Positions 3,526-14,446 of a stretch of 21,330 nucleotides of DNA are shown here, piece after piece. Every line of letters begins with the position of its first letter. The stretch's first letter is position 1. Source of the DNA: a virus; IMG/VR virus record IMGVR_UViG_3300006919_000567, positions 1-21,330 of that record; one strand, given 5' to 3'. Position numbers and translations under genes: made by a program. The notes below the pieces were generated by a model. It was not told where the DNA came from. It searched no databases and saw only the letters and a list, made by a program, of their open reading frames with translations.

Positions 3526-4014
3526 TTAGAATGCTATTTCACCTTCTTCTGCAGGAGCAGTCTCAATAGCTTCGAAACCAGCGTTAGGTGTATACTCGAC
3601 AAGATTAACAACTTGAACTGCAGTAAGAGACGTTGCAACGCCTTTTCTGCCAGGAGCTTCATATTCGTACTGCCATAGATTAACATTTACTTTAGAACCG
3701 TTACCGATATTATTAGCATCGATCGGCTGAAGCTTGCCATCTACGACTTTTACAGGTGCATTTGGATTGCCATCTGCTTTTATACCTTTTCGCTTGAGAT
3801 TAACGAAATGAGTATTTTCGTCATTCTTGTCTTGTTTTACGTTGAGGCCAAGATCGTTAAGTTCTTTGATCTTGCCTTTATCGCTAGTCGCAATAACCAT
3901 TTCCCACTGCTTCGAACCGAATGGGTTTACAGGCGCATCAGTACCAGAGATACGACAAAATTTGGCTTCAACATCTTTTATAATTATAGAACGAGGATAA
4001 GTACTGTCTGTCAT
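3526..4014 (-). CDS. ssDNA-binding protein, gp2.5/DUF2815-like
   Basis: The 162-residue product has the plan of phage ssDNA-binding OB-fold proteins: a central segment IGNGSKVNVNLWQYEYE at about 102-118, then KGVATSLTAVQVVNLVEY at 123-140, a pattern shared by DUF2815/gp2.5-like proteins, and an acidic tail (APAEEGEIAF) ending in an aromatic residue, as in T7 gp2.5 and bacterial SSB. It would coat ssDNA in replication and contact partner proteins through the tail. It is a single-gene transcription unit: palindromic promoter E lies upstream (4047-4092) and a terminator follows. AAGGGAG precedes the ATG by about 5 bases. Family naming is by motif, not by search. Confidence 0.78.
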   Translation of the reverse strand: MTDSTYPRSIIIKDVEAKFCRISGTDAPVNPFGSKQWEMVIATSDKGKIKELNDLGLNVKQDKNDENTHFVNLKRKGIKADGNPNAPVKVVDGKLQPIDANNIGNGSKVNVNLWQYEYEAPGRKGVATSLTAVQVVNLVEYTPNAGFEAIETAPAEEGEIAF

Positions 4015-4046
4015 TTAAGACTCCCTTGGGTTAAATTAAGTTAAAT

Positions 4047-4092
4047 AGTATATAGTTTGCAAGTAAATTTGACCAAAAATTTAGCTTGCAAA
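4047..4092 (-). promoter_or_regulatory. Palindromic promoter E (for the ssDNA-binding protein gene)
   Basis: Reading the minus strand: arm TTTGCAAGCTAAATTT, TTGGTC (-35 position), arm AAATTTACTTGCAAA, then TATACT (-10) 18 bases after the -35. The arms are perfect complements except for one extra C in the upstream arm. Here the outer stem is GC-containing (GCAAG/CTTGC), unlike the other five copies, yet pairing is kept. Confidence 0.6.
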
Positions 4093-4113
4093 ATATGGTT
4101 AGTTTAATGGTAC

Positions 4114-4254
4114 TCAAGAACTAGATAAAGGATAATTCTCACTTACATACTGATCGACTAAGAGGTTATCAGAGACTATCTTAATTATCTCGTCAACGCC
4201 TAAGGCAATGTTATACTTAGCGAGAACATACGTAAAAATATCTTGATGATCCAT
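4114..4254 (-). CDS. Hypothetical protein, 46 aa
   Basis: A short frame with AAGGAG upstream (eight bases between GGAG and the ATG). The product starts MDHQDIFTYVLAKYNI, continues ALGVDEIIKIVSDNLLVDQY and ends VSENYPLSSS; it looks like two or three short helices, acidic overall. Palindromic promoter D lies just upstream, so this small gene seems to have its own promoter, which argues that it is a real gene. Transcription could continue towards promoter E and the ssDNA-binding protein gene, as no terminator is visible between them. Function unknown. Confidence 0.6.
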   Translation of the reverse strand: MDHQDIFTYVLAKYNIALGVDEIIKIVSDNLLVDQYVSENYPLSSS

Positions 4255-4282
4255 GTCATACACTCCTTGGTTTAAGATATTT

Positions 4283-4328
4283 ATTATGAGGAATAATTTT
4301 AAATTTTGCCAAAAAATTTAGAAATTAT
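4283..4328 (-). promoter_or_regulatory. Palindromic promoter D (for the 46-aa ORF)
   Basis: On the minus strand: arm ATAATTTCTAAATTT, TTGGCA as -35 (5 of 6 matches to TTGACA), arm AAATTTAAAATTAT, then CATAAT as -10 (5 of 6), with exactly 18 bases between. The upstream arm has one extra C relative to its partner. Confidence 0.62.
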
Positions 4329-4361
4329 AAGAAGTTACAATACGGTACACGGTAGCACTTT

Positions 4362-4391
4362 AAAAAAGCGTGGCACCCTTTCGAGTGCCAC
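4362..4391 (-). terminator. Intrinsic terminator after the gene at 4413-4607
   Basis: On the minus strand a 7-bp stem (GTGGCAC/GTGCCAC) with a loop of about 8 bases is followed by GC and TTTTTT. It closes the transcript that starts at promoter C or at the 19-nt motif at 5938-5956. Confidence 0.8.
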
Positions 4392-4412
4392 TAGTTTGCC
4401 AACATGGTCGTT

Positions 4413-4607
4413 CTAGTTATACAGATCCTTGGCATGTGGATGCGACAAAGGTACTGACTTTACAGCAATGTCAAGTACGTTTGGCTTATCCATGATGATC
4501 TGTACATATTCGTCTTGATCTTCTGAATTGTCAAATGTCTTTTTCACAGTTTGTACGCCATACTGCGAGTCAAAAGAATATTCAACAGTATACATTCTAT
4601 TTGTCAT
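4413..4607 (-). CDS. Hypothetical protein, 64 aa
   Basis: Unrecognised. The preferred ATG at 4607 has GGGAGA upstream at a good distance and overlaps the upstream gene by 11 nt; a longer version from 4658 would overlap it by 62 nt. The product MTNRMYTVEYSFDSQYG... looks like a small alpha-beta unit: strands (YTVEYSF), a KKTFDNSEDQDEYVQIIMD helix, then VLDIAVKSVPL as a strand. It is the last gene of its operon, followed at once by a terminator. Confidence 0.65.
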   Translation of the reverse strand: MTNRMYTVEYSFDSQYGVQTVKKTFDNSEDQDEYVQIIMDKPNVLDIAVKSVPLSHPHAKDLYN

Positions 4608-5091
4608 TTGTATTCTCCCATGGTTTTGCTGCACTACGAGTGTTATCACCGTTTTCATTGATACGATCTATAAGGCGAGTATCATCAGTATTAAACAATG
4701 CTTCTTTTACCTTTTCGAATAAAGGTTTCTGAACATGCATAATATGTAATACATTAGCATCAATACGACAACTTGCAAGCACTTTATTAAGAACATCAAG
4801 CTTTATTGGAAATACAACCTCATCATCTGGACTATTGGTTATGTCTTGCAAATGTACAGATAACGGGTGATTGTACATGAGGTTTCCTGTCAATGGATCT
4901 ATGACAGCAAGCTCATATATGTCAGGCGCACGATGAGACTCTTGAATTATCGACAAATAATACGGATAAGTCGCATCTTCAAAATTGAGACTACAGCGAT
5001 CGATATAAGAACTATCGGTCACTTGCGTACGCGTGAAAGTTAAGTCAACAACATCAGTCTTGACTATAACATGAGTGATTTTATCAGTCAT
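4597..5091 (-). CDS. Hypothetical protein, 164 aa
   Basis: Unrecognised. The ATG at 5091 has AAGGAG six bases upstream and overlaps the stop of the gene before it by 8 nt (ATGACTGA); a start nine codons earlier lacks such a site. The product begins MTDKITHVIVKTDVVDLTF and looks like a mixed alpha-beta protein with several strands in the first half (ATYPYYLSIIQES, YELAVIDPLTG) and helices in the second half (KLDVLNKVLASCR, LFEKVKEALF), ending in a polar tail. No catalytic motif is visible. It is the middle gene of a three-gene unit. Confidence 0.68.
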   Translation of the reverse strand: MTDKITHVIVKTDVVDLTFTRTQVTDSSYIDRCSLNFEDATYPYYLSIIQESHRAPDIYELAVIDPLTGNLMYNHPLSVHLQDITNSPDDEVVFPIKLDVLNKVLASCRIDANVLHIMHVQKPLFEKVKEALFNTDDTRLIDRINENGDNTRSAAKPWENTNDK

Positions 5092-5731
5092 CAGTTTCTC
5101 CTTCAAAATTAGCATCAAATATCACATTAGTGGGATCACTATTCGCTTTAGTGAGCTCTCGATCGTGATCCCGATACACTTTACTTTGAGCTCTATTTCT
5201 CTCATAAGCTTCTTCGATATGAGCAATACCAAGTGTCAAGTTATTTTCAACACCTACACCTTCACCGAAGCTACGACTGACAGTAACAACATTACCATGG
5301 CGTAATATCCACGAGTTGTCATGGTTGTCATTAGTCTTTTCATATAGACTTCGATTGAGTGGCACTGAATTACAGTTATCAATATGACCGTGACCGAACT
5401 GCTTATCGTATTGTATTGCAGTTTCATTGAGGTACATAAAGCCTCCGTGATATGGATCCATGTATCGTTTATAGATACAATGACACACATCTTTTGGATT
5501 GTTATTACGCTCGAAAGCAGCTTTGAAGACTTTATGACAATGACTACAACGAGTATCGACTAATGGACTGTCGCATTCTCTATTGAAGTGACGAGCGATA
5601 TCTAGACGATTCTCAATAGGCACTTCAACGAATACGTAGTCGGTTGCATGATCAATACCTAGTAGCACTTTCTCTGAATGCGATACTAGGGTTTCAATCG
5701 CTTTATCAACGACTGTTTTCTTTGGTTGCAT
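5084..5731 (-). CDS. Hypothetical protein with CxxC...CxC cluster, 215 aa
   Basis: Not recognised as a family. Start at 5731 is chosen because AGGA lies about seven bases upstream; an ATG five codons earlier has no site. The product has a CSHCHK pair at 62-67 and a VCHC pair at 82-85, i.e. CxxC then CxC about 18 residues later with flanking His, a plausible structural zinc site. Other landmarks are HGGFMYLNETAIQYDK in the middle and a charged helical part (HIEEAYERNRAQSKVYRDHD) near the end. It is the first gene of a three-gene unit headed by palindromic promoter C and, further up, by a copy of the 19-nt phage promoter candidate. An early regulatory or DNA-related role is possible but not shown. 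Confidence 0.68.
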   Translation of the reverse strand: MQPKKTVVDKAIETLVSHSEKVLLGIDHATDYVFVEVPIENRLDIARHFNRECDSPLVDTRCSHCHKVFKAAFERNNNPKDVCHCIYKRYMDPYHGGFMYLNETAIQYDKQFGHGHIDNCNSVPLNRSLYEKTNDNHDNSWILRHGNVVTVSRSFGEGVGVENNLTLGIAHIEEAYERNRAQSKVYRDHDRELTKANSDPTNVIFDANFEGETDD

Positions 5732-5784
5732 AGCTGATCCTTTCATTTAACTATGTTGGCTATTAATATTACTTACAAGGTAAT

Positions 5785-5831
5785 ATTAAAGAGATTATTT
5801 TTAAATTATGACAAGGAATTTAGAAAATAAT
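5785..5831 (-). promoter_or_regulatory. Palindromic promoter C (for the 5084-5731 unit)
   Basis: On the minus strand: arm ATTATTTTCTAAATT, TTGTCA as -35 (5 of 6 matches), arm AATTTAAAAATAAT, then TTTAAT as -10 with 18 bases between -35 and -10. The upstream arm again has one extra C. The -35 lies in the loop and the downstream arm lies in the spacer. Confidence 0.62.
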
Positions 5832-5937
5832 ATTATGCAGGCAGCATTGTGGGAGCTCGATATTGGTCGGGAATCACCCAAAAGGCATAGTAATCTATCC
5901 TATACGGGTATATGTCTAACCACCCCGGCCCCTCTTC

Positions 5938-5956
5938 TCTCTAATAGGAGACACTT
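5938..5956 (-). promoter_or_regulatory. 19-nt phage promoter candidate, copy 3
   Basis: The minus strand reads AAGTGTCTCCTATTAGAGA, one base different from the copy at 10031-10049. It is intergenic and points into the 5084-5731 unit, about 210 bases upstream of its start. The shape (conserved core ending in CTATTAGAGA) recalls promoters of T7-type RNA polymerases such as those ending CTATAGGGAGA. Confidence 0.6.
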
Positions 5957-5987
5957 CGGTACGTCGGAGCACAACGCGGTCCCGCTT

Positions 5988-6020
5988 TTAAAAACAAGGA
6001 CTCCCTTTCGGGAGCCCTTG
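5988..6020 (-). terminator. Intrinsic terminator after the 6032-6550 gene
   Basis: On the minus strand an 11-bp stem with one mismatch (CAAGGGCTCCC with GGGAGTCCTTG) and a GAAA tetraloop is followed by TTTTT. GAAA loops are typical of stable hairpins. Confidence 0.88.
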
Positions 6021-6031
6021 CTGCACCTAAA

Positions 6032-6550
6032 TTAGTCAAGAACCTCGAAGCCGTCAGTCTTTTTAGCTTCTTCTTTCTTGTCTTCATCAGACTCTATGTC
6101 TAGATGCTCATCCTTTTCTTCTTCTATTTCAGATGATAACTCATCCAAGAAGTTGTCGAGGTTGTTCTTGCTTTTCTTGCCTTTCAGCAATTCAGCTAGA
6201 GCATCTTTGACTTTACCTTTGGCAGGCACGAATCCGTTGAAGGAATCCATGTCATTTGGCATGATACCTTCGATGTCCAAGTCTTTCACACAAGCCTTGT
6301 TCGAATGGTTATGTATGTCAGAGATACGACTCCATGTTCTGGTGTCGATGATCTGGAACTGGATAACCAATCTACCTGATCGCCATGCATCGTAGAACTT
6401 GCTGTTAGCAAATGCAAAATACATGAACCTCAAGGCATGCATCGGGTTCTTGAAGAAGTTACTAGCTCGATCAAGACCTTCGATCTTGTGGAACTTCTTA
6501 GACACCTTGTTATCGGCTGCCATAGGCGTTACTTTATATTTGTCGGCCAT
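6032..6550 (-). CDS. Early protein, paralogue of the 6788-7177 product, 172 aa
   Basis: Not a family I can name. The product has a basic N-terminal half (HALRFMYFAFANSKFYDAWR at 38-57), a core with GIMPND at 95-100 and GFV at 106-108, a KGKK at 123-126, and a strongly acidic tail (EIEEEKDEHLDIESDED) ending FEVLD. GIMxND, GFV and GKK stand at exactly the same spacing in the product of the next gene upstream, so the two are diverged copies. It forms its own unit: palindromic promoter B, a TAGGAGG ribosome site before ATGGCC, and a strong terminator. A single, well-expressed gene close to the divergent control region would suit an early host-takeover or DNA-binding protein; this is inference. 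Confidence 0.75.
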   Translation of the reverse strand: MADKYKVTPMAADNKVSKKFHKIEGLDRASNFFKNPMHALRFMYFAFANSKFYDAWRSGRLVIQFQIIDTRTWSRISDIHNHSNKACVKDLDIEGIMPNDMDSFNGFVPAKGKVKDALAELLKGKKSKNNLDNFLDELSSEIEEEKDEHLDIESDEDKKEEAKKTDGFEVLD

Positions 6551-6628
6551 GTTGGACCTCCTATATGTTGGCTACAACTACGTGTAGCAGGTTGATCATA
6601 CAATGTTGTAACATACATCATATGATAT

Positions 6629-6674
6629 ATTATATAGATTATTTTTAAAATCCCTAAGGATTTTAGAAAATAAT
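6629..6674 (-). promoter_or_regulatory. Palindromic promoter B (for the 6032-6550 gene)
   Basis: On the minus strand: arm ATTATTTTCTAAAATCC, loop TTAG, arm GGATTTTAAAAATAAT, then a perfect TATAAT at the -10 position. The arms are complementary over 16 bp with one extra C in the upstream arm. The -35 position falls on the loop but matches TTGACA poorly. Confidence 0.6.
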
Positions 6675-6743
6675 AATATGCACTAGCAGATGAAGGTAGC
6701 CGTAAAGGCCACAGCGGTGGCCGACAACGGTGGTCTCCCTTTT

Positions 6744-6775
6744 AAAAACAAAGGCACCCATTAAGAGTGCCTTTG
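6744..6775 (-). terminator. Intrinsic terminator after the 6788-7177 gene
   Basis: On the minus strand a 9-bp stem (CAAAGGCAC with GTGCCTTTG) and a 9-base loop is followed by TTTTT. Like the terminator at 5988-6020 it ends in GTTTTTAAAA. Confidence 0.85.
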
Positions 6776-6787
6776 CCAACCTTGAAA

Positions 6788-7177
6788 TTAATCAAGTATA
6801 TCTTCCAAAGAATCGGAAGAGGTTTCAACCTTCTTTTCAGAGGTTTTATCCTTCTTCTTCTTCTTTGGAGAAGAATCGAGTTCCGCTTGCAAGATCTCGA
6901 TTGCAGCAACGATTGCTTTCTTCTTACCTGTAAGGCAAGCGAAAAGCACAACTGCAAAAGCCTTGCGTTTCATTACGAAACCATCATGACCTTTTGGGTC
7001 ATTTGACATGATTCCGCCGAAAGGCTCGTTAGCCACTACATGGTGACGATCCTTAAGAAAGTCAGCGTAGTAGGTTAACGTTGCAGACGAAGACTGCTTG
7101 AACAGCTTCTTCGATGCAAGCAACGAGTAAACAACTCTTGCAAGTTGATACACGTTCTTTGTTGTATTTCGAGCCAT
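6788..7177 (-). CDS. Early protein, paralogue of the 6032-6550 product, 129 aa
   Basis: Not a family I can name. The product starts MARNTTKNVYQLARVVYSLLASKKLF, has GIMSND at 55-60, GFV at 66-68, a hydrophobic helix (KAFAVVLFACLTGKKK at 72-87), a Lys-rich patch (PKKKKKDK at 104-111) and an acidic end (SSDSLEDILD). The GIMxND-GFV-GKK spacing is identical to the downstream gene's product, and the ribosome site and start context (GGAGTCCAACATGGC against GGAGGTCCAACATGGC) are nearly the same, so gene and leader were duplicated together. It is the first minus-strand gene after the divergent control region, under palindromic promoters A and F, and probably among the first genes expressed. Confidence 0.75.
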   Translation of the reverse strand: MARNTTKNVYQLARVVYSLLASKKLFKQSSSATLTYYADFLKDRHHVVANEPFGGIMSNDPKGHDGFVMKRKAFAVVLFACLTGKKKAIVAAIEILQAELDSSPKKKKKDKTSEKKVETSSDSLEDILD

Positions 7178-7302
7178 GTTGGACTCCTTTCTGCGCTATT
7201 GCGCTTTGTGCAGTTACAACAACTGCGGTTAATACACGACGGATTAGTAATTAATCACATCGAGTTATATATAATAAAGTATAAGAATATAAGTTATTAT
7301 AT

Positions 7303-7381
7303 ATTATATAGATTATTTTTAAATTATTAGAGAGTAAGTTAATGAAGAGAGAGTAAGTTAAGGAAATAATTTAGAAAATAA
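7303..7381 (-). promoter_or_regulatory. Palindromic promoter A (for the 6788-7177 gene)
   Basis: On the minus strand the arms are TTATTTTCTAAATTATT and AATAATTTAAAAATAAT, followed by a perfect TATAAT. The upstream arm again has the extra C. The loop is longer (36 bases) than in the other copies and contains the 14-nt direct repeat. No good -35 hexamer is seen. Confidence 0.55.
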
Positions 7382-7388
7382 GATACGA

Positions 7389-7437
7389 GATATAGATTTA
7401 AAAATATTATTAATGGAATAAATAATATTTTTTAGAT
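7389..7437 (-). promoter_or_regulatory. Palindromic promoter-like element F
   Basis: On the minus strand the arms ATCTAAAAAATATTATT and AATAATATTTTTAAAT flank a 9-base loop and are followed by TATATC near the -10 position. It has the same build as copies A-E, but the -10 and -35 matches are weak, so it may be an operator or a decayed copy. Confidence 0.4.
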
Positions 7438-7510
7438 ATAAAAAGAAGGGGGGTATAAAAATATAAGGGGGTGTATATATATAGGCGTATTTTTTTAAGT
7501 TTATTTAAAG

Positions 7511-7529
7511 AAGTGTCCCCTAGTAGAGA
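7511..7529 (+). promoter_or_regulatory. 19-nt phage promoter candidate, copy 1
   Basis: AAGTGTCCCCTAGTAGAGA stands 34 bases before the first rightward start codon. It differs at one base from the copy at 10031-10049 and at two from the minus-strand copy at 5938-5956. It probably starts the transcript for the terminase and later genes. Confidence 0.65.
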
Positions 7530-7553: not shown

Positions 7554-7562
7554 GGAGGTATA

Positions 7563-7823
7563 ATGATTCTCTACAATGATCCCTGCGATGATGTAGGTAT
7601 TAGTGTTAGTGATTGGATAAAAAGGATTAATAATGAACAAAAAACATTTAAAGCAGGATTTGATAGTACTAGGCGTGATAGCGGTAATCATCTTGCTAGC
7701 TATTGGGGTTCATTATGGACAATAAACAAAAACTTGCCATCATTAAAGAAGCACGAAGAAGAAAACTCTTATCAAGATACGAAACCGACTTTGAAAGATT
7801 CGCAAAGGATCAAGTCAAAATAA
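7563..7823 (+). CDS. Possible ORF overlapping the terminase start, 86 aa
   Basis: The ATG has the best ribosome site in the region (AGGAGG, four bases away) and follows promoter candidate copy 1. The product starts MILYNDPCDDVGISVSDWIKR and ends in a Lys-rich tail. The frame runs through a tiny membrane ORF in a second frame and about 109 bases into the terminase gene in a third frame. The first 25 codons lie in otherwise empty sequence and look protein-like; the rest may be only a consequence of the overlap. The gene is therefore uncertain; it may serve as a leader that feeds ribosomes into the next two starts. Confidence 0.35.
   Translation: MILYNDPCDDVGISVSDWIKRINNEQKTFKAGFDSTRRDSGNHLASYWGSLWTINKNLPSLKKHEEENSYQDTKPTLKDSQRIKSK
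7633..7725 (+). CDS. Tiny single-span membrane peptide, 30 aa
   Basis: A 30-codon frame starts at an ATG with AGGA seven bases upstream. The product has a basic start (MNKKHLKQD), a clear hydrophobic span (LIVLGVIAVIILLAIGV) and a short end (HYGQ). Its stop lies just after the terminase ATG, so the two genes overlap by 11 nt. The basic N-terminus, single span and short tail would put the C-terminus outside the cytoplasm. A role in lysis timing or membrane takeover is possible; nothing shows it. Confidence 0.6.
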   Translation: MNKKHLKQDLIVLGVIAVIILLAIGVHYGQ

Positions 7824-9358: not shown

Positions 9359-9780
9359 TACTAGAAACTGCACTTATGTGTATGGCTGCTAATATATATC
9401 ACGAGGCAAAGAACCAATCTATGCTAGGGCAATTTGCGGTTGCTCAAGTAGTAATGAATCGAGTAGAAGACCATAGATACCCTAACACAATCTGTGAGGT
9501 TGTAAAGCAGGGTTTAACATATAAAAACGGAAAGGTAGTAATAGGCAAATGCCAGTTTTCCTGGTACTGCGATGGAAAGTCTGATGAACCTAGAAGAAAA
9601 AGTAAAGCATGGAGTAACGCTATAAGACATGCATCTATAATAATGGGTGAAAGTATTAATCTAGACGTAACCGATGGTGCTACTCACTATCACGCAAGCT
9701 ACGTTAGGCCATCATGGGCTAAAACAAAAACACGAACAACGAGGATTGATAAACATATATTCTATAGGTGGGAGAAGTAA
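9355..9780 (+). CDS. SleB-like cell wall hydrolase
   Basis: The 141-residue product fits the Hydrolase_2 (SleB) family: NIYHEAKNQS at 13-22 with Glu17 as the likely catalytic acid, GQFAVAQVVMNRVEDHRYPNTICEVV at 25-50, and CQFSWYCDG at 66-74. These enzymes cut peptidoglycan glycan strands. No signal peptide is seen, so it would need a holin or act as a virion enzyme. The ATG at 9355 has GAGG five bases away and overlaps the terminase stop; a GTG two codons earlier is less likely. Together with the M15 peptidase further on, the phage has two wall-degrading enzymes in the packaging region. Confidence 0.9.
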   Translation: MILETALMCMAANIYHEAKNQSMLGQFAVAQVVMNRVEDHRYPNTICEVVKQGLTYKNGKVVIGKCQFSWYCDGKSDEPRRKSKAWSNAIRHASIIMGESINLDVTDGATHYHASYVRPSWAKTKTRTTRIDKHIFYRWEK

Positions 9781-9782
9781 CT

Positions 9783-10031
9783 ATGAGTAAAAACGTTAAG
9801 CTTTCTGTAGGAAGAGGTGAAAAGAGATCAGTAAAATCAGGAGCTGGATTAACGGCAAAAGGAGTAGCAAAGTATAAACGCGCTAATCCTGGATCTAAAC
9901 TAAAAACTGCTGTAACAGGTAAAGTAAAACCTGGAAGTAAGGCAGCAGGCAGAAGAAAATCTTTTTGTGCGAGGTCTAAGGGATGGACCGGCGAAAGAGG
10001 TAAAGCTGCTAGAAGAAGATGGAAATGTTAA
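9783..10031 (+). CDS. DUF6321-type basic protein, 82 aa
   Basis: The product is very basic and starts MSKNVKLSVGRGEKRSVKSG, continuing AGLTAKGVAKYKRANPGSKLKTAV and ending with KSFCARSKGW...RRRWKC. The pair of landmarks GLTAKGVAKY..NPGSKL and RRKSFCAR...RRWKC is that of a conserved protein common in cyanophages and other marine phages (I believe named DUF6321). Its role is unknown; the charge suggests DNA or RNA contact. The ATG at 9783 has GGAGAAG upstream; a GTG five codons earlier lies inside the hydrolase gene. Confidence 0.75.
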   Translation: MSKNVKLSVGRGEKRSVKSGAGLTAKGVAKYKRANPGSKLKTAVTGKVKPGSKAAGRRKSFCARSKGWTGERGKAARRRWKC

Positions 10032-10049
10032 AGTGTCCCCTATTAGAGA
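10031..10049 (+). promoter_or_regulatory. 19-nt phage promoter candidate, copy 2
   Basis: AAGTGTCCCCTATTAGAGA begins on the last base of the DUF6321-type gene and ends 27 bases before the next ATG, in one of the few gaps of this arm. The match over the full 19 bases to copy 1 (18 of 19) is far beyond chance in a non-coding gap. Confidence 0.65.
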
Positions 10050-10076
10050 ATTTTATAAAAAACAGTGGAGAGTAAC

Positions 10077-10493
10077 ATGAGTAGAGGTGGCAATTCACAT
10101 CCAAACTCACTAAAGAACCTGCGCCCCTTCACTCGTGAAGGTGCGCGCGCGGGCCAAAAAAATTCGGTAATTGCGCGTAAAGCTAATAAAGAAGCGCGGG
10201 AAGCTTTAAAAGTAACGCTAAAAGATTGGCAAGCTTTAAAAGATGAAGTGAAAGACGATGCACCAGCAGCATTAGATGTATTAAAAATAGCAATGACAAA
10301 AGCATTAGCTGCTGAAGATATGGATGAAGCAACAAGACTAGCAACAGTATTAGCTGAGTTTGAAGCACCAAAATTACAAAGACAAGATATAACACAAGTC
10401 ACTCAGACTTCTGATATGACCGACGAACAACTACAGAAAGCTTTAGAAGATATGGATCTTGAGTTTACTGTAGAACCTAAAAACTTTAACTAA
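10077..10493 (+). CDS. Terminase small subunit-like protein, 138 aa
   Basis: The product starts MSRGGNSHPNSLKNLRPFTR, followed by EGARAGQKNSVIARKANKEAREAL and then long helices (TLKDWQALKDEVKDDAPAALDVLK; MTKALAAEDMDEATRLATVL). The N.NSLKNL.PF..G...G opening is common in proteins annotated as phage terminase small subunits or related DNA-binding packaging factors. That would place it in recognition of the packaging site, near the large subunit. The ATG at 10077 has GGAG six bases upstream; a GTG at 10065 is possible. The family call is by pattern only. A GC-rich inverted repeat lies within its first 70 bases. Confidence 0.6.
   Translation: MSRGGNSHPNSLKNLRPFTREGARAGQKNSVIARKANKEAREALKVTLKDWQALKDEVKDDAPAALDVLKIAMTKALAAEDMDEATRLATVLAEFEAPKLQRQDITQVTQTSDMTDEQLQKALEDMDLEFTVEPKNFN
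10121..10146. repeat. GC-rich inverted repeat inside the TerS-like gene
   Basis: GCGCCCCTTCAC and GTGAAGGTGCGC form a 12-bp stem with one mismatch around a 2-base centre, followed by CGCGCGGGCC. This is the most GC-rich patch in an AT-rich region. It encodes the conserved LRPFTREGAR stretch, so protein constraint could explain part of it; a packaging-site role is a possibility because such sites often lie in or near small terminase genes. Confidence 0.45.
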
Positions 10494-10515
10494 TGGAACC
10501 ATATGAGGAATTAAT

Positions 10516-10833
10516 GTGGAAGATACGAAATCCTTACAAAAAGGTAGCAAGTACAATGAATATGACGAGGACGGAGACGGAATTGTTACAGATGAAGAAC
10601 TCAGGCATGTCAAAGAAATTAAGGAAGTCGAACATAATTTACGGAAACAACGTGCACAGAGACGAATGGCCACTTGGACACTTATCGGAATGGGTGCGTT
10701 CACGGTGGTAATGTTTGTTTTACCTTTAGAAAGAATAGCTGCATTAGCCGATATTAGTAATTTATTTTATATTAGTGGCGCAGGTATAGTAGGCGCATAC
10801 ATGGGTACAACTGCTTATATGAGCAAAAAATAA
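10516..10833 (+). CDS. EF-hand membrane protein, holin candidate
   Basis: The 105-residue product has a complete EF-hand calcium loop, DEDGDGIVTDEE at 17-28 (Asp at 1, 3 and 5, Gly at 6, Glu at 12), a charged helix (RHVKEIKEVEHNLRKQRAQR at 30-49) and two membrane spans (about 52-70 and 83-101), ending MSKK. The start is a GTG at 10516 with GAGGA six bases upstream; an overlapping ATG two bases before is in another frame. Two spans, small size and position directly before an M15 endolysin suggest a holin; the calcium loop in front of the spans is unusual and could tie pore opening to calcium. Function is inferred from context. Confidence 0.72.
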   Translation: MEDTKSLQKGSKYNEYDEDGDGIVTDEELRHVKEIKEVEHNLRKQRAQRRMATWTLIGMGAFTVVMFVLPLERIAALADISNLFYISGAGIVGAYMGTTAYMSKK

Positions 10834-10844
10834 AAAGGAAAGTT

Positions 10845-11318
10845 ATGGCTTTTAAATTATCACAAAGATCGTTTCAGAAACTAGTTGGCGTACACCCATA
10901 TATGGATTCTGTTGTAAGGAAGGCTATTGAATTAACTAAAGTAGACTTTGGTGTTATATATGGTGTAAGAACCGTAGAAGAACAAGAAAAGCTAGTAGCT
11001 GCTGGCAGATCACAAACTATGAAGAGTAAGCATTTAAAACAAGATGATGGCTATTGTCATGCTGTAGACTTAATGGCATATGTAGACGGAGAACCTTGTT
11101 GGGAAATAAATGTGTATGATGATATATGTGATGCAATGAAAGAAGCAGCTAAAGCACAAAATATAGCTATTAAGTGGGGAGCTGCTTGGTCTGAAGGTGA
11201 TATTAGAGACTATCCAGGCACTGCTGAAGAAGCTATGAATAAATACGTTGATCTAAGAAGATCACAAGGAAGACGCCCGTTTATAGATGGGCCACATTTT
11301 GAATTAATACTTGATTGA
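10845..11318 (+). CDS. M15-family peptidase endolysin
   Basis: The product fits phage L-alanyl-D-glutamate-type endolysins of the M15 family: VIYGVRTVEEQ at 37-47, the zinc site His63 in MKSKHL, Asp75 in HAVDLMAY, and His151 in DGPHFEL near the end. The gap between His63 and Asp75 is a few residues longer than in the common SxHxxGxAxD form, with a KQDDGYC insert; the zinc ligands are nonetheless present. It would cut the stem peptide of peptidoglycan. No signal peptide is seen. It follows the EF-hand membrane protein by 11 bases, with AGGAAAG before the ATG, forming a likely lysis pair. Confidence 0.88.
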   Translation: MAFKLSQRSFQKLVGVHPYMDSVVRKAIELTKVDFGVIYGVRTVEEQEKLVAAGRSQTMKSKHLKQDDGYCHAVDLMAYVDGEPCWEINVYDDICDAMKEAAKAQNIAIKWGAAWSEGDIRDYPGTAEEAMNKYVDLRRSQGRRPFIDGPHFELILD

Positions 11319-11337
11319 TTGAACCCAGGAGCGGATC

Positions 11338-11502
11338 ATGCCAGAAGATAAAACATATATTCAGCAATCTGTTGAACAAGATATAAAAGACCAGAAAAAA
11401 GAAAAACATGAAGATCGTGTTTTACCAAAGCCTGGAGAATACGACGGAATAGATTTAGAAAGAGCAGCTAAGATATACTCTCCTATTGGAGGTAAATATT
11501 AA
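11338..11502 (+). CDS. Hypothetical charged protein, 54 aa
   Basis: A short frame with AGGAG six bases before the ATG; its stop shares one base with the portal start (TAATG). The product begins MPEDKTYIQQSVEQDIKDQK, is rich in Lys, Glu and Asp in the first half, and ends in GIDLERAAKIYSPIGGKY. No span or motif is seen. Tight coupling to the portal suggests a virion-assembly role, for example a small portal partner, but this is not shown. Confidence 0.7.
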   Translation: MPEDKTYIQQSVEQDIKDQKKEKHEDRVLPKPGEYDGIDLERAAKIYSPIGGKY

Positions 11503-13661
11503 TGGCACAAAGTTACGGTTATAAAGAACCAGTAACTGATGAACAGCTTATTAATATGATAGAGCAGGGTGTTCAAAGTAGTACTGGTGATTTTTTAAAT
11601 AGTTCTGATCTTGCAAGAGAAAGACTGAAATCAACATATGAATATGCTGGCGTGGCGGCTGATCATCTATCACCACAAGGAGTTTCATCAATAGTTGATA
11701 CTTCTACAACAGAGGTTATTGAGGCTTATACTGCTATACTTTCTGATTTATTTTTATCTAATCATAGGTTAGCTAGGTTTGTGCCTTATGATGATAGTCC
11801 AGGAGCTTTTAAAGCTGCAAGAGACGCAAGTGATGTAGTAAACTACTGTATATTTAAAAAGAATAATGGCTGGGAGTTTTTATCTAGCTGGATTAAATGT
11901 TCTTTGCTATGGAAAAATGCAGTATGTAGATGGGATTACATAGAAGATTATGATTATGTGTTTGAGGATTACGAAGAAGTAACTCAAATGAAGCTTGACG
12001 AAATTTTATCTGATAGTACTGCAGAGGTAATTGGTGAATTAAAATACCAAAACAGAACTACTAGTATGGATAACGAAGTAAACAACGTTGAGCTAGTATA
12101 TAAAGACGTACGAATAAGAAAGAAGATAGATAAGTCTAGAGTTAAGTTGGAGTTAGTTCCACCTGAAAACTTTAGAATATCAAGAGATGCTACAGAAATA
12201 GAAGATGCTCAGTTTGTAGGTATACAGACTCAGATGACTAGATCTGAAATAAGAAAATATTATCCTGACGTAGTTGATGATATTGATTTTGATAATATGC
12301 ACGATACTTCATGGTTAGGTTCTGCAAAATACTCTCAAGATGTAGCAGCTAGAAAAGCTGTAACAGGACAAGAGTATTGGCAAGGATCTGTTGAACAACA
12401 TGAAGTACCGTTAGAAGCAAACATAAATGTGAATGTAACTGAATGCTGGATTGAAGTAGACAGAGACGGAGATGGCATTGCTGAACTAAAGCACATAATG
12501 ACTATTGGTAACCACATTGTTTATGAAAACGATGTAGAAGAAATACCACTAGCATCTATTGTGCCTATTGATATACCGTTTGAATTTTATGGTTTGTCAA
12601 TGGCAGACTTTACAAGAAGCTCAACATTAGCTTCTACAGCAATACTAAGAGGTTTTGTAGAAAATACATATCTTACAAACTATGCTCCTAAGTTAGCGGA
12701 TCCTAATATAGTTGATTTTTCTGCTTTACAAAATATGAAGCCAAAGCAGATAATACCTACTAATGGTAATCCACAAGCTGCAGTTTCTACTTTACCACCT
12801 GAAACTATATCTACTGGTACTGTGCCTTTACTAGAGCATTTGCAAACTATTAAAGAGCAAGCAACTGGTATGAGTAAGACTGTACAAGGTCTTAATGACA
12901 CATTGTACGTTTCAGGAAATTCAGAACAAAAGTTCGCCGCTGTCCAATCAGCAGCCCAGAAGCGTATTCAACATATTGCGCGGCGTTTTGCGGAAACAGG
13001 ATTTAAGCGGTTGATTGCTGGAGTCTACGAAACTATGCACAAGAGCATGAAGCGTAAAGTTTCATATAGCATGGATGGTGTATATAAAACCGTAGATATG
13101 AACGCACTTCCATCTAAGATGGACGTTGAAATTCTTCTTGATATAGGAGAAAATAGTAATAGTAACAAGTTACAAAAATTACAAAAAATAGGTGCAGAAG
13201 TTCTTCCAGCTCTTAATAATAATGGTGCAGGTATAGTTATACGACCTGAAGCACCAGCTGTTTTAGCAACTCAAATAATAGAATCCATGAATATGGATAG
13301 TAACGATTTCTTAGAAGATTACAATACTGAAGAATTTAGACAACGAGCAATGGAGTCTGTTGAAAAGCAAACAAAAGACGCTGAACTAGCAAAGCAGCTT
13401 GAGCAACAAAGAGCTGCTGCTGAAGTTGACTTACAATCAGCAAATGTACAGTATACTAGAGCTCAAGCTAAAAATACAATGGACGATAATGCTAGACAGT
13501 TAGCAGTTTCTATTGATAAACATTTTCAAGAATGGGCAGATTTAAATATTAAAGCTGTCAAAGAAGGAACGCAAGTGCCACAACATCCTTCTTATAACGA
13601 AATATTAATGATGGCACAACAAATATTAGGAGGACGCCCAAATGGGAACAGTAACAATTAA
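11502..13661 (+). CDS. Portal protein, SU10/P22-like
   Basis: At 719 residues this is a large portal of the podovirus-like type. Landmarks are the opening with DFLNSSDLARERLKSTYEYA, a DRDGDGIAELKH string near residues 319-330 (a loop common in this portal family), FEFYGLSMADF around 364, and the helical crown part IKEQATGMSKTVQGLNDTL followed by QKRIQHIARRFAE. A long helical C-terminus (AKQLEQQRAAAEVDLQSANV) would form the barrel. It makes the dodecameric DNA gate at one capsid vertex. Position after terminase and before scaffold and capsid genes supports the call. GGAGGT lies eight bases before the ATG. Codon use shifts locally at about 12930-13080. Confidence 0.88.
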   Translation: MAQSYGYKEPVTDEQLINMIEQGVQSSTGDFLNSSDLARERLKSTYEYAGVAADHLSPQGVSSIVDTSTTEVIEAYTAILSDLFLSNHRLARFVPYDDSPGAFKAARDASDVVNYCIFKKNNGWEFLSSWIKCSLLWKNAVCRWDYIEDYDYVFEDYEEVTQMKLDEILSDSTAEVIGELKYQNRTTSMDNEVNNVELVYKDVRIRKKIDKSRVKLELVPPENFRISRDATEIEDAQFVGIQTQMTRSEIRKYYPDVVDDIDFDNMHDTSWLGSAKYSQDVAARKAVTGQEYWQGSVEQHEVPLEANINVNVTECWIEVDRDGDGIAELKHIMTIGNHIVYENDVEEIPLASIVPIDIPFEFYGLSMADFTRSSTLASTAILRGFVENTYLTNYAPKLADPNIVDFSALQNMKPKQIIPTNGNPQAAVSTLPPETISTGTVPLLEHLQTIKEQATGMSKTVQGLNDTLYVSGNSEQKFAAVQSAAQKRIQHIARRFAETGFKRLIAGVYETMHKSMKRKVSYSMDGVYKTVDMNALPSKMDVEILLDIGENSNSNKLQKLQKIGAEVLPALNNNGAGIVIRPEAPAVLATQIIESMNMDSNDFLEDYNTEEFRQRAMESVEKQTKDAELAKQLEQQRAAAEVDLQSANVQYTRAQAKNTMDDNARQLAVSIDKHFQEWADLNIKAVKEGTQVPQHPSYNEILMMAQQILGGRPNGNSNN

Positions 13662-14026: not shown

Positions 14027-14446
14027 ATGAATAGACATTTAGAAATTATAGATTGGTTTAATAATTACACACCTTATACTATTGGCTTTGATAGATTGGT
14101 GGAACGATTAGCCGCAAATACTAACACGGATACTTATCCTCCGTTTAACATTATAAAGGAGGACGCAGAAAACTTTAAGATAGAAATGGCTGTAGCTGGC
14201 TTTGAAAAATCTGAAATAGATATTACAGTAGCTGACGGTATGCTATCAATTAAATCTGCAAAAGAGAATAAAAACGATGATGATAAACTTTACAGAGGTA
14301 TTTCTTACAGAAAGTTTAATAAAAAGTTTACGCTAGCTGAAGATGTAATCGTAAAAGACGCATCACTAATCTGCGGATTATTAACTATTAAACTAGAAAA
14401 AATACTTCCTGAAGAGAAGAAACCTAGGACTATTAAAATAAACTAA
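14027..14446 (+). CDS. Hsp20 / small heat shock protein
   Basis: The 139-residue product is an alpha-crystallin-domain chaperone of the IbpA type: TIGFDRLVERLAA near residue 20, YPPFNIIKEDAENFKIEMAV at the domain start, AGFEKSEIDITVADGMLSI in the core, a YRGISYRKFNKKFTLAEDV segment, and a C-terminal IKI that matches the I-x-I anchor. Small heat shock proteins are frequent in cyanophages and other marine phages and may help the folding or assembly of head proteins; the position between portal and scaffold fits this. AAGGAG stands seven bases before the ATG at 14027; an upstream TTG at 14006 is unlikely. Confidence 0.93.
   Translation: MNRHLEIIDWFNNYTPYTIGFDRLVERLAANTNTDTYPPFNIIKEDAENFKIEMAVAGFEKSEIDITVADGMLSIKSAKENKNDDDKLYRGISYRKFNKKFTLAEDVIVKDASLICGLLTIKLEKILPEEKKPRTIKIN

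Follow-up and report, generated by a model that had tools for sequence, protein, structure and literature searches.

Candidate N4-type hairpin promoters, in a new format, ahead of the early genes of a marine phage with an SU10-type capsid

The early genes of a marine phage, represented here by 21,330 bases of DNA (IMG/VR virus record IMGVR_UViG_3300006919_000567, positions 1 to 21,330; hereafter the window), are preceded by five imperfect inverted repeats of a single class. These elements are probably early promoters that act as folded DNA, and the enzyme that reads them is probably a second single-subunit RNA polymerase of the virion type, related to that of phage N4. In our best reading, hairpin promoters of the N4 type here occur beyond the N4-like family and take a new format. 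The portal and major capsid proteins of the phage are of the SU10 type. Its early genes lie on the minus strand below position 7,560, and the late arm, on the plus strand, begins with the terminase at 7,703. All five repeats lie within the early arm, ahead of early genes.

The five elements occupy minus-strand positions 7313-7381, 6638-6674, 5794-5831, 4293-4328 and 4056-4092 (hereafter E1 to E5) and share a common format. An outer stem of 7-8 base pairs (bp) is followed by an extra C, by TAAA opening an inner stem, by a loop of 4 to 36 nucleotides (nt) and by the return arms. Downstream, 4 nt from the base of the 8-pair stem, stands a box reading ATAATAT, TTAATAT, ATAATAA or ATACTAT. The eighth pair is mismatched in two copies (7313 and 4293). 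We searched the early noncoding sense strand for hairpins with a bulge in the 5′ arm, an outer stem of at least 7 bp, an inner stem of at least 5 bp and a loop of 3-45 nt. Five were seen, against a mean of 0.013 and a maximum of 1 in 300 dinucleotide shuffles; hairpins of equal format bulged on the 3′ side numbered zero on that strand of the window. An earlier note on this DNA had placed six palindromes in one class, defined by a 5′ arm in which an additional C precedes TAAA and by a −10-like box that follows. These features are present in all five true copies, but the sixth palindrome (7389-7437, minus strand) is a plain AT hairpin of a different class, which lacks the C bulge, the TAAA and a box at the right distance.

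The individual elements, all on the minus strand, vary in stem and loop. E1 (7313-7381), upstream of a gene for a 129-amino-acid protein that starts at 7177, reads TTATTTT(C)TAAATTATT, then a 36-nt loop without G, then AATAATTTAAAAATAA, giving a 7-bp outer and a 9-bp inner stem. Its box, ATAATAT (7301-7307), begins 4 nt past the 8-pair base, and the first base of the box would be +1 by the geometry of N4 (PMC4496689). E2 (6638-6674; ATTATTTT(C)TAAAATCC TTAG GGATTTTA AAAATAAT) precedes a gene for 172 amino acids (start 6550) and has the box ATAATAT at 6627-6633. E3 (5794-5831; ATTATTTT(C)TAAATT CCTTGTCAT AATTTA AAAATAAT) precedes a gene for 215 amino acids (start 5731), with TTAATAT at 5783-5789. 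E4 (4293-4328; ATAATTT(C)TAAATTTT TTGGC AAAATTTA AAATTAT) is upstream of a gene for 46 amino acids (start 4254) and has ATAATAA at 4281-4287; an intrinsic terminator (4370-4391, minus strand) stands between it and the upstream genes. E5 (4056-4092), with the box ATACTAT at 4045-4051, has changed outer arms, TTTGCAAG(C)TAAATTT TTGGTC AAATTTA CTTGCAAA. It lies upstream of the gene for a single-stranded DNA (ssDNA)-binding/annealing protein (3526-4014, minus strand, start 4014; phrog_112, E value 1.8e-13).

Relatives of the phage carry hairpins of a simpler form. The relatives compared, referred to here by G and L numbers, are metagenome contigs, none of them known to be complete. As read from their sequences, the general rule is a stem of 8 bp whose sequence is free, with the ninth base of its 5′ arm an unpaired A or C, and WTAMTAW after a further 4 nt. 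In G006, whose terminase is 89% identical to that of the window phage, seven early-strand hairpins have seven different 8-bp stems (aatttcac, aaaggcac, gaaggcac, gagggcac, agcgagag, ggcgcgtg and ggcgcggg), the loop ATAAA (once ATTAA) and N-CTAAWAATAT after the stem. Seven ATAAA loops sit on stems of at least 7 bp on the sense strand of G006 and none on the antisense strand (shuffle mean 0.0); one of these seven hairpins has a T run downstream instead and is terminator-like. The corresponding sense, antisense and shuffle counts are 5, 0 and 0.0 for G005 and 6, 1 and 0.03 for G004. Loops differ by lineage: ATAC or ATTC in G005, ATCC or ATTC in G004, ACAAG or ATAAA in G003 and G007, and possibly AGAA in G013, a distant relative. 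In one register the CTAAA of the window aligns with the ATAAA of the relatives. This accounts for the extra-C asymmetry that the earlier note had described: the bulged C stands where the simpler hairpins have an A that opens the loop. In L005, L006 and L008 the bulged base is mostly A, not C.

The distance to the box is also conserved among the relatives. WTAMTAW is most frequent 4 nt away from the base of the stem (19 sense versus 6 antisense), with smaller rises at 12-13 nt to which inner arms may contribute in part. Elements in the relatives also stand ahead of the genes for the ssDNA-binding protein and DNA polymerase. GC hairpins ahead of the ssDNA-binding gene in many relatives had been taken as terminators, an assignment that we dropped for most, not all, of them on the basis of the shared loop and downstream box. 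Hairpins with promoter loops are followed by T runs (TTTTT) at G004 23392 and 19952 and G006 8685, and are possibly dual promoter/terminators or derived from terminators. Upstream of 4872 in L003, the hairpin before the ssDNA-binding gene is gone and a TATAGTATATTATTTTAACC tail is left, a natural deletion.

The arms change while the pairing is kept, as the earlier note had proposed. Within the window, TTTGCAAG/CTTGCAAA at 4056 contrasts with ATTATTTT/AAAATAAT at 5794 and 6638. The check in related phages that the note had called for gave the same result, with pairing kept and arms compensated: TTGCAAG/CTTGCAA in the window corresponds to TTGCGAG/CTCGCAA in L004, and at the 6638 position ATTATTTT/AAAATAAT corresponds to TAAAATT/AATTTTA in a close relative. 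We counted pairs on registered elements rather than building a covariance model because the inner stem and loop are too variable in the window's clade. Across 29 registered elements, related in sequence and mostly found by searches that demanded Watson-Crick stems, 97% of cells are paired versus 55% when shuffled. Two-sided changes occur at all 8 pairs (84 such cells versus 20 shuffled), and the covariation score is 1.04, against 0.22 shuffled and 0.15-0.28 with the partners slid. When the relatives were searched without a stem requirement, the distribution was split: 53 sites had 0-5 Watson-Crick pairs and 21 had 6-8. As a null, none of 120 matches picked from viral contigs by loop and downstream motif alone exceeded 6 of 8 stem matches. 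The search motif ATAAA-N9-CTAATAATAT proved unspecific in viral contigs and was kept only as a null, and an exact-arm search of viral contigs returned only near relatives and chance AT-rich matches. The proposal that these promoters are recognized as a folded strand, by pairing and not by bases, is well supported: the stems of the relatives differ wholly, stem length, loop and distance to WTAMTAW are fixed, and a candidate virion-type RNA polymerase is encoded.

The gene for this candidate second polymerase lies in the late arm of relatives. The protein is 1191 amino acids long in G003 and 1508 in G004, and G005, G006 and G008 have homologs. Its gene follows those of two other large late-arm proteins, one with a transglycosylase domain; in G003 and G004 it is the last of three large late-arm genes. 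Scans of the large late proteins against Pfam, PHROG and PDB first missed the polymerase, which was found by inspection of motifs. The candidate motif B, FLKKPPMTL[AS]YGQ, is invariant; T7 RNA polymerase has KRSVMTLAYG. A motif A-like DGxTHGPAS and the invariant acidic motifs IDGAWMN and MDAV come in an order that, by eye, fits the palm motifs of T7. Moreover, the candidate weakly but consistently resembles phrog_2206 ('virion RNA polymerase') around motif A: the match is present in 6 of the 6 relatives that reach this region (G003, G004, G005, G006, G008 and G013; E values 4e-4 to 4e-7), whereas 14 control genomes gave none.

Among isolates, Roseobacter phage CRP-7 (MK613349) has the nearest portal protein, and its terminase, capsid, DNA polymerase, primase and T7-like RNA polymerase are related as well. 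Neither a matching hairpin family, by loop and stem count, nor a match to phrog_2206 was found in CRP-7. Genes for the T7-like RNA polymerase in the group include CRP-7 gp30, G003 22343-24706 and G004 9477-11888. The hairpins are unlike the promoters of T7-like phage RNA polymerases, which have a non-palindromic conserved sequence of about 20 bp. The likely promoter motif of the T7-like RNA polymerase is GTGTCYCCTANTAGAG, which is conserved in most relatives that cover the regions concerned. In the window it occurs as GTGTCTCCTATTAGAG on the minus strand (5939-5954), as GTGTCCCCTAGTAGAG at the start of the late arm (7513-7528, plus strand) and as GTGTCCCCTATTAGAG inside the late arm (10033-10048, plus strand), each a putative promoter. 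With a separate GTGTCYCCTANTAGAG motif for the T7-like enzyme, the hairpins would therefore be a second promoter class. Between the GTGTCYCCTANTAGAG motif and E3, at about 5840-5960 on the minus strand, there is a conserved noncoding stretch (CTCCTATTAGAGAGAAGAGGGG...) that is possibly a structured leader RNA.

We propose that the strand at each start site folds into a hairpin whose 8-bp stem is free in sequence and is capped by an unpaired C (A in relatives), with 4 nt between the stem base and the start region WTAMTAW. The virion-type polymerase, which presumably enters with the DNA, would read these hairpins and transcribe the first genes, among them that for the ssDNA-binding protein and, in relatives, that for DNA polymerase. 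The T7-like RNA polymerase would later take over from GTGTCYCCTANTAGAG.

The N4 virion polymerase requires a hairpin, tolerates any non-conserved stem base if pairing is kept, and acts on a duplex/single-strand junction between −5 and −4 (PMC4496689). The likeness to N4 promoters P1-P3 and gp50 (Schitoviridae) extends over several features. In both, the hairpin is kept as a structure while non-conserved bases of the stem are free, and a few copies stand ahead of early genes. N4 starts about 4 nt from the hairpin base, and WTAMTAW, the presumed start here, lies at offset 4. N4 has its virion-type single-subunit RNA polymerase beside a second phage RNA polymerase; here a candidate for such an enzyme is encoded beside the T7-like one, and its gene is the last of three large late-arm genes, comparable to the ejection operon of N4. 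The differences are equally definite. The stem is 8 bp here and 5-7 bp in N4; the loops are ATAAA, ATNC or ACAAG (4-5 nt, lineage-specific), or a bulge with an inner stem, whereas N4 has a 3-nt loop; and the conserved GC-rich heptamer of N4, centred at −11, has no equivalent here, where the start region is TAATAT. The polymerase has about 1,200-1,500 amino acids, roughly one third of the ~3,500 in N4. The portal and capsid are of the SU10 type, unlike those of Schitoviridae, and the T7-like RNA polymerase is in one piece where Schitoviridae have a two-subunit RNA polymerase II. By analogy, then, the hairpins would work like the promoters of N4 and are not members of that class in the strict sense.

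A folded single strand also serves as promoter in the Frpo-type single-stranded DNA promoters of conjugative plasmids. These are read by the host sigma-70 RNA polymerase and have the promoter duplex inside the hairpin, whereas here the start box is outside the stem. According to a 2025 preprint, only Schitoviridae have the virion polymerase (PMC12633501), and hairpin transcription by a virion RNA polymerase is treated as an N4-like hallmark (PMC12633501, PMC7650795). In the literature searched here we found no report of such transcription outside Schitoviridae.

Several observations weigh against promoters read by an N4-related virion polymerase. N4 has a 3-nt loop, whereas the copies of the window's clade show variable loops and long inner stems that have no N4 counterpart. 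The box resembles a sigma-70 −10, three loops hold a −35-like hexamer, and T runs after certain GC-rich hairpins of relatives suggest possible terminators. The assignment of the polymerase rests on short motifs and on the PHROG E values. The candidate had no match among PDB sequences and none by tblastn of phage records; an AlphaFold model from five sequences was poor (pLDDT, the predicted local distance difference test score, 46); and in Foldseek the N4 virion polymerase (9pnq) came second, not significantly (E 1.2), a ranking that we do not use as evidence. Profile comparison with T7-like enzymes gave E 0.012 at low probability. Moreover, the window record stops before the position of the candidate gene, so that its presence in the window phage is presumed from the relatives. 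CRP-7 (L055) gp33, at 17859-21566 on the minus strand, has a motif-B-like AKDYARGLVVAGLYG and a motif-C-like VAIHDALITG and is possibly a diverged second RNA polymerase; its comparison with the candidate-polymerase profile was not significant.

The elements could instead be ordinary early promoters of the host sigma-70 polymerase, in which the box is a TATAAT-like −10, the loop supplies the −35 and the left arm is an AT-rich UP element, the pairing being a by-product or a supercoiling-dependent off switch. The earlier note had pointed to −35 hexamers, and three loops do hold a −35-like hexamer 18 nt ahead of the box: TTGTCA (5814-5809), TTGGCA (4312-4307) and TTGGTC (4076-4071), with TTGACA in relatives. 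Three of the five elements also score as consensus at their own box, and the order terminator-element-gene fits. Sigma-70 promoters would show −35 and −10 hexamers 16-18 nt apart in every copy; as a general feature, however, the −35 fails. It is absent at 6638 and 7313 and in the GC-rich-stem copies of relatives, such as gagggcac[ATAAA]gtgccctc, where only hairpin and box are left; the UP element, likewise absent from the GC-stem copies, was dropped. Consensus sigma-70 sites are no more frequent in this region than chance predicts (19 versus 13.7 ± 3.9), and free stems with a fixed loop and length are left unexplained. We therefore consider this explanation unlikely. Operators for a dimeric DNA-binding protein would account for inverted repeats at promoters and for arms shared by three window copies. 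As the arm sequences change wholly with pairing kept, and the 1-nt asymmetry is fixed, this is the least probable of the alternatives.

RNA hairpins in 5′ leaders, transcribed from further upstream and acting in processing or stability, would also keep their pairing, and the earlier note had allowed for an RNA element. E1 is part of a G-free leader in which a further conserved AT motif precedes it, a cUUCGg loop occurs in L005 and L006, and the outermost pairs in relatives are often G-U. Yet in the 21 elements listed from a search with G-U allowed, such pairs occur only at the two outermost positions and at none of pairs 3-8. Because G-U (G-T in DNA) is nearly absent, the pairing favours, indirectly, folded DNA over RNA. 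Ahead of E2 come a terminator and a GC-rich stretch of about 90 nt in which no other −10 candidate is seen by eye, at several places an element separates a terminator from the gene that follows, the distance of 4 nt to a start-like box is fixed, and Rfam gave two matches only, both far below the gathering score. We regard leader RNAs as quite unlikely. Intrinsic terminators of upstream genes are suggested by the TTTTT after some GC-rich copies (those at G004 23392 and 19952 and G006 8685). The window copies, by contrast, are AT-rich and lack a T run, separate GC-rich terminators lie upstream, and a TAATAT box follows most copies, which makes this reading very improbable.

The hairpin promoters proposed here lie, at E1, in a sense strand nearly devoid of G. 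The 224 nt from 7262 to 7485 (minus strand), which hold E1 and the sixth palindrome, contain 1 G; the poorest 224 nt in shuffles of the window contain 18-27. Relatives have longer tracts: about 1,040-1,120 nt with 4 G in L005 (133-1256) and L006 (2315-3356), 1,047 nt with 0 G in L021 (767-1813), 609 nt with 5 G in L036 (3004-3612) and about 560 nt with 1-7 G in L023, L024 and L027-L029. Each genome that has such a tract has one, at the first early unit; several hairpin-bearing relatives are without it. The L005 and L006 tract includes an open reading frame (ORF) of 215-218 amino acids with only two G, both in ATGG. Between L005 and L006 this G-free ORF shows 104 nucleotide differences, 0 of which involve G, as against 14 of 39 in the ssDNA-binding genes. 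These comparisons indicate that selection acts on the nucleic acid in the G-free tract, which may keep the strand unstructured around the hairpin promoters. At about 7440-7510 on the minus strand, a conserved AAACTTAAAAAAAT..TATATATATACACCCC..TATACCCCCC heads the G-poor tract in many relatives and is possibly a first early promoter read by the host.

More tentatively, and with somewhat more doubt than confidence, we suggest that these phages represent a second hairpin-reading lineage outside Schitoviridae. It would have a clade-specific loop code and drifting stems, tied to an early sense strand that has been purged of guanine over as much as 1.1 kb, with a 215-codon ORF in it that has only two G, because the DNA must stay unstructured save for the hairpins, or the RNA is made or used without G. 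Marine phages that combine a capsid of the SU10 type with a T7-like RNA polymerase would then use hairpin transcription too, by a compact polymerase and with a different hairpin format, beside an early strand strictly maintained free of G. The many copies, with stems freely exchanged and loops that are specific to each lineage, offer a natural data set on how a single-subunit polymerase reads hairpins. With a polymerase of expressible size, the promoters are directly testable and could serve as an orthogonal single-stranded-DNA transcription system.

DNA comparison placed no annotated phage record near the window, and a search of bacterial genomes found no relatives. The first two early proteins (6032-6550 and 6788-7177, minus strand) share a GIM(S/P)ND...G(F)V segment and are paralog-like; an IQSIPNN..NYQYP segment of the G-free ORFs resembles it. 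In the late arm, a small ORF at 14027-14446 (plus strand) looks by eye like an Hsp20-type chaperone.

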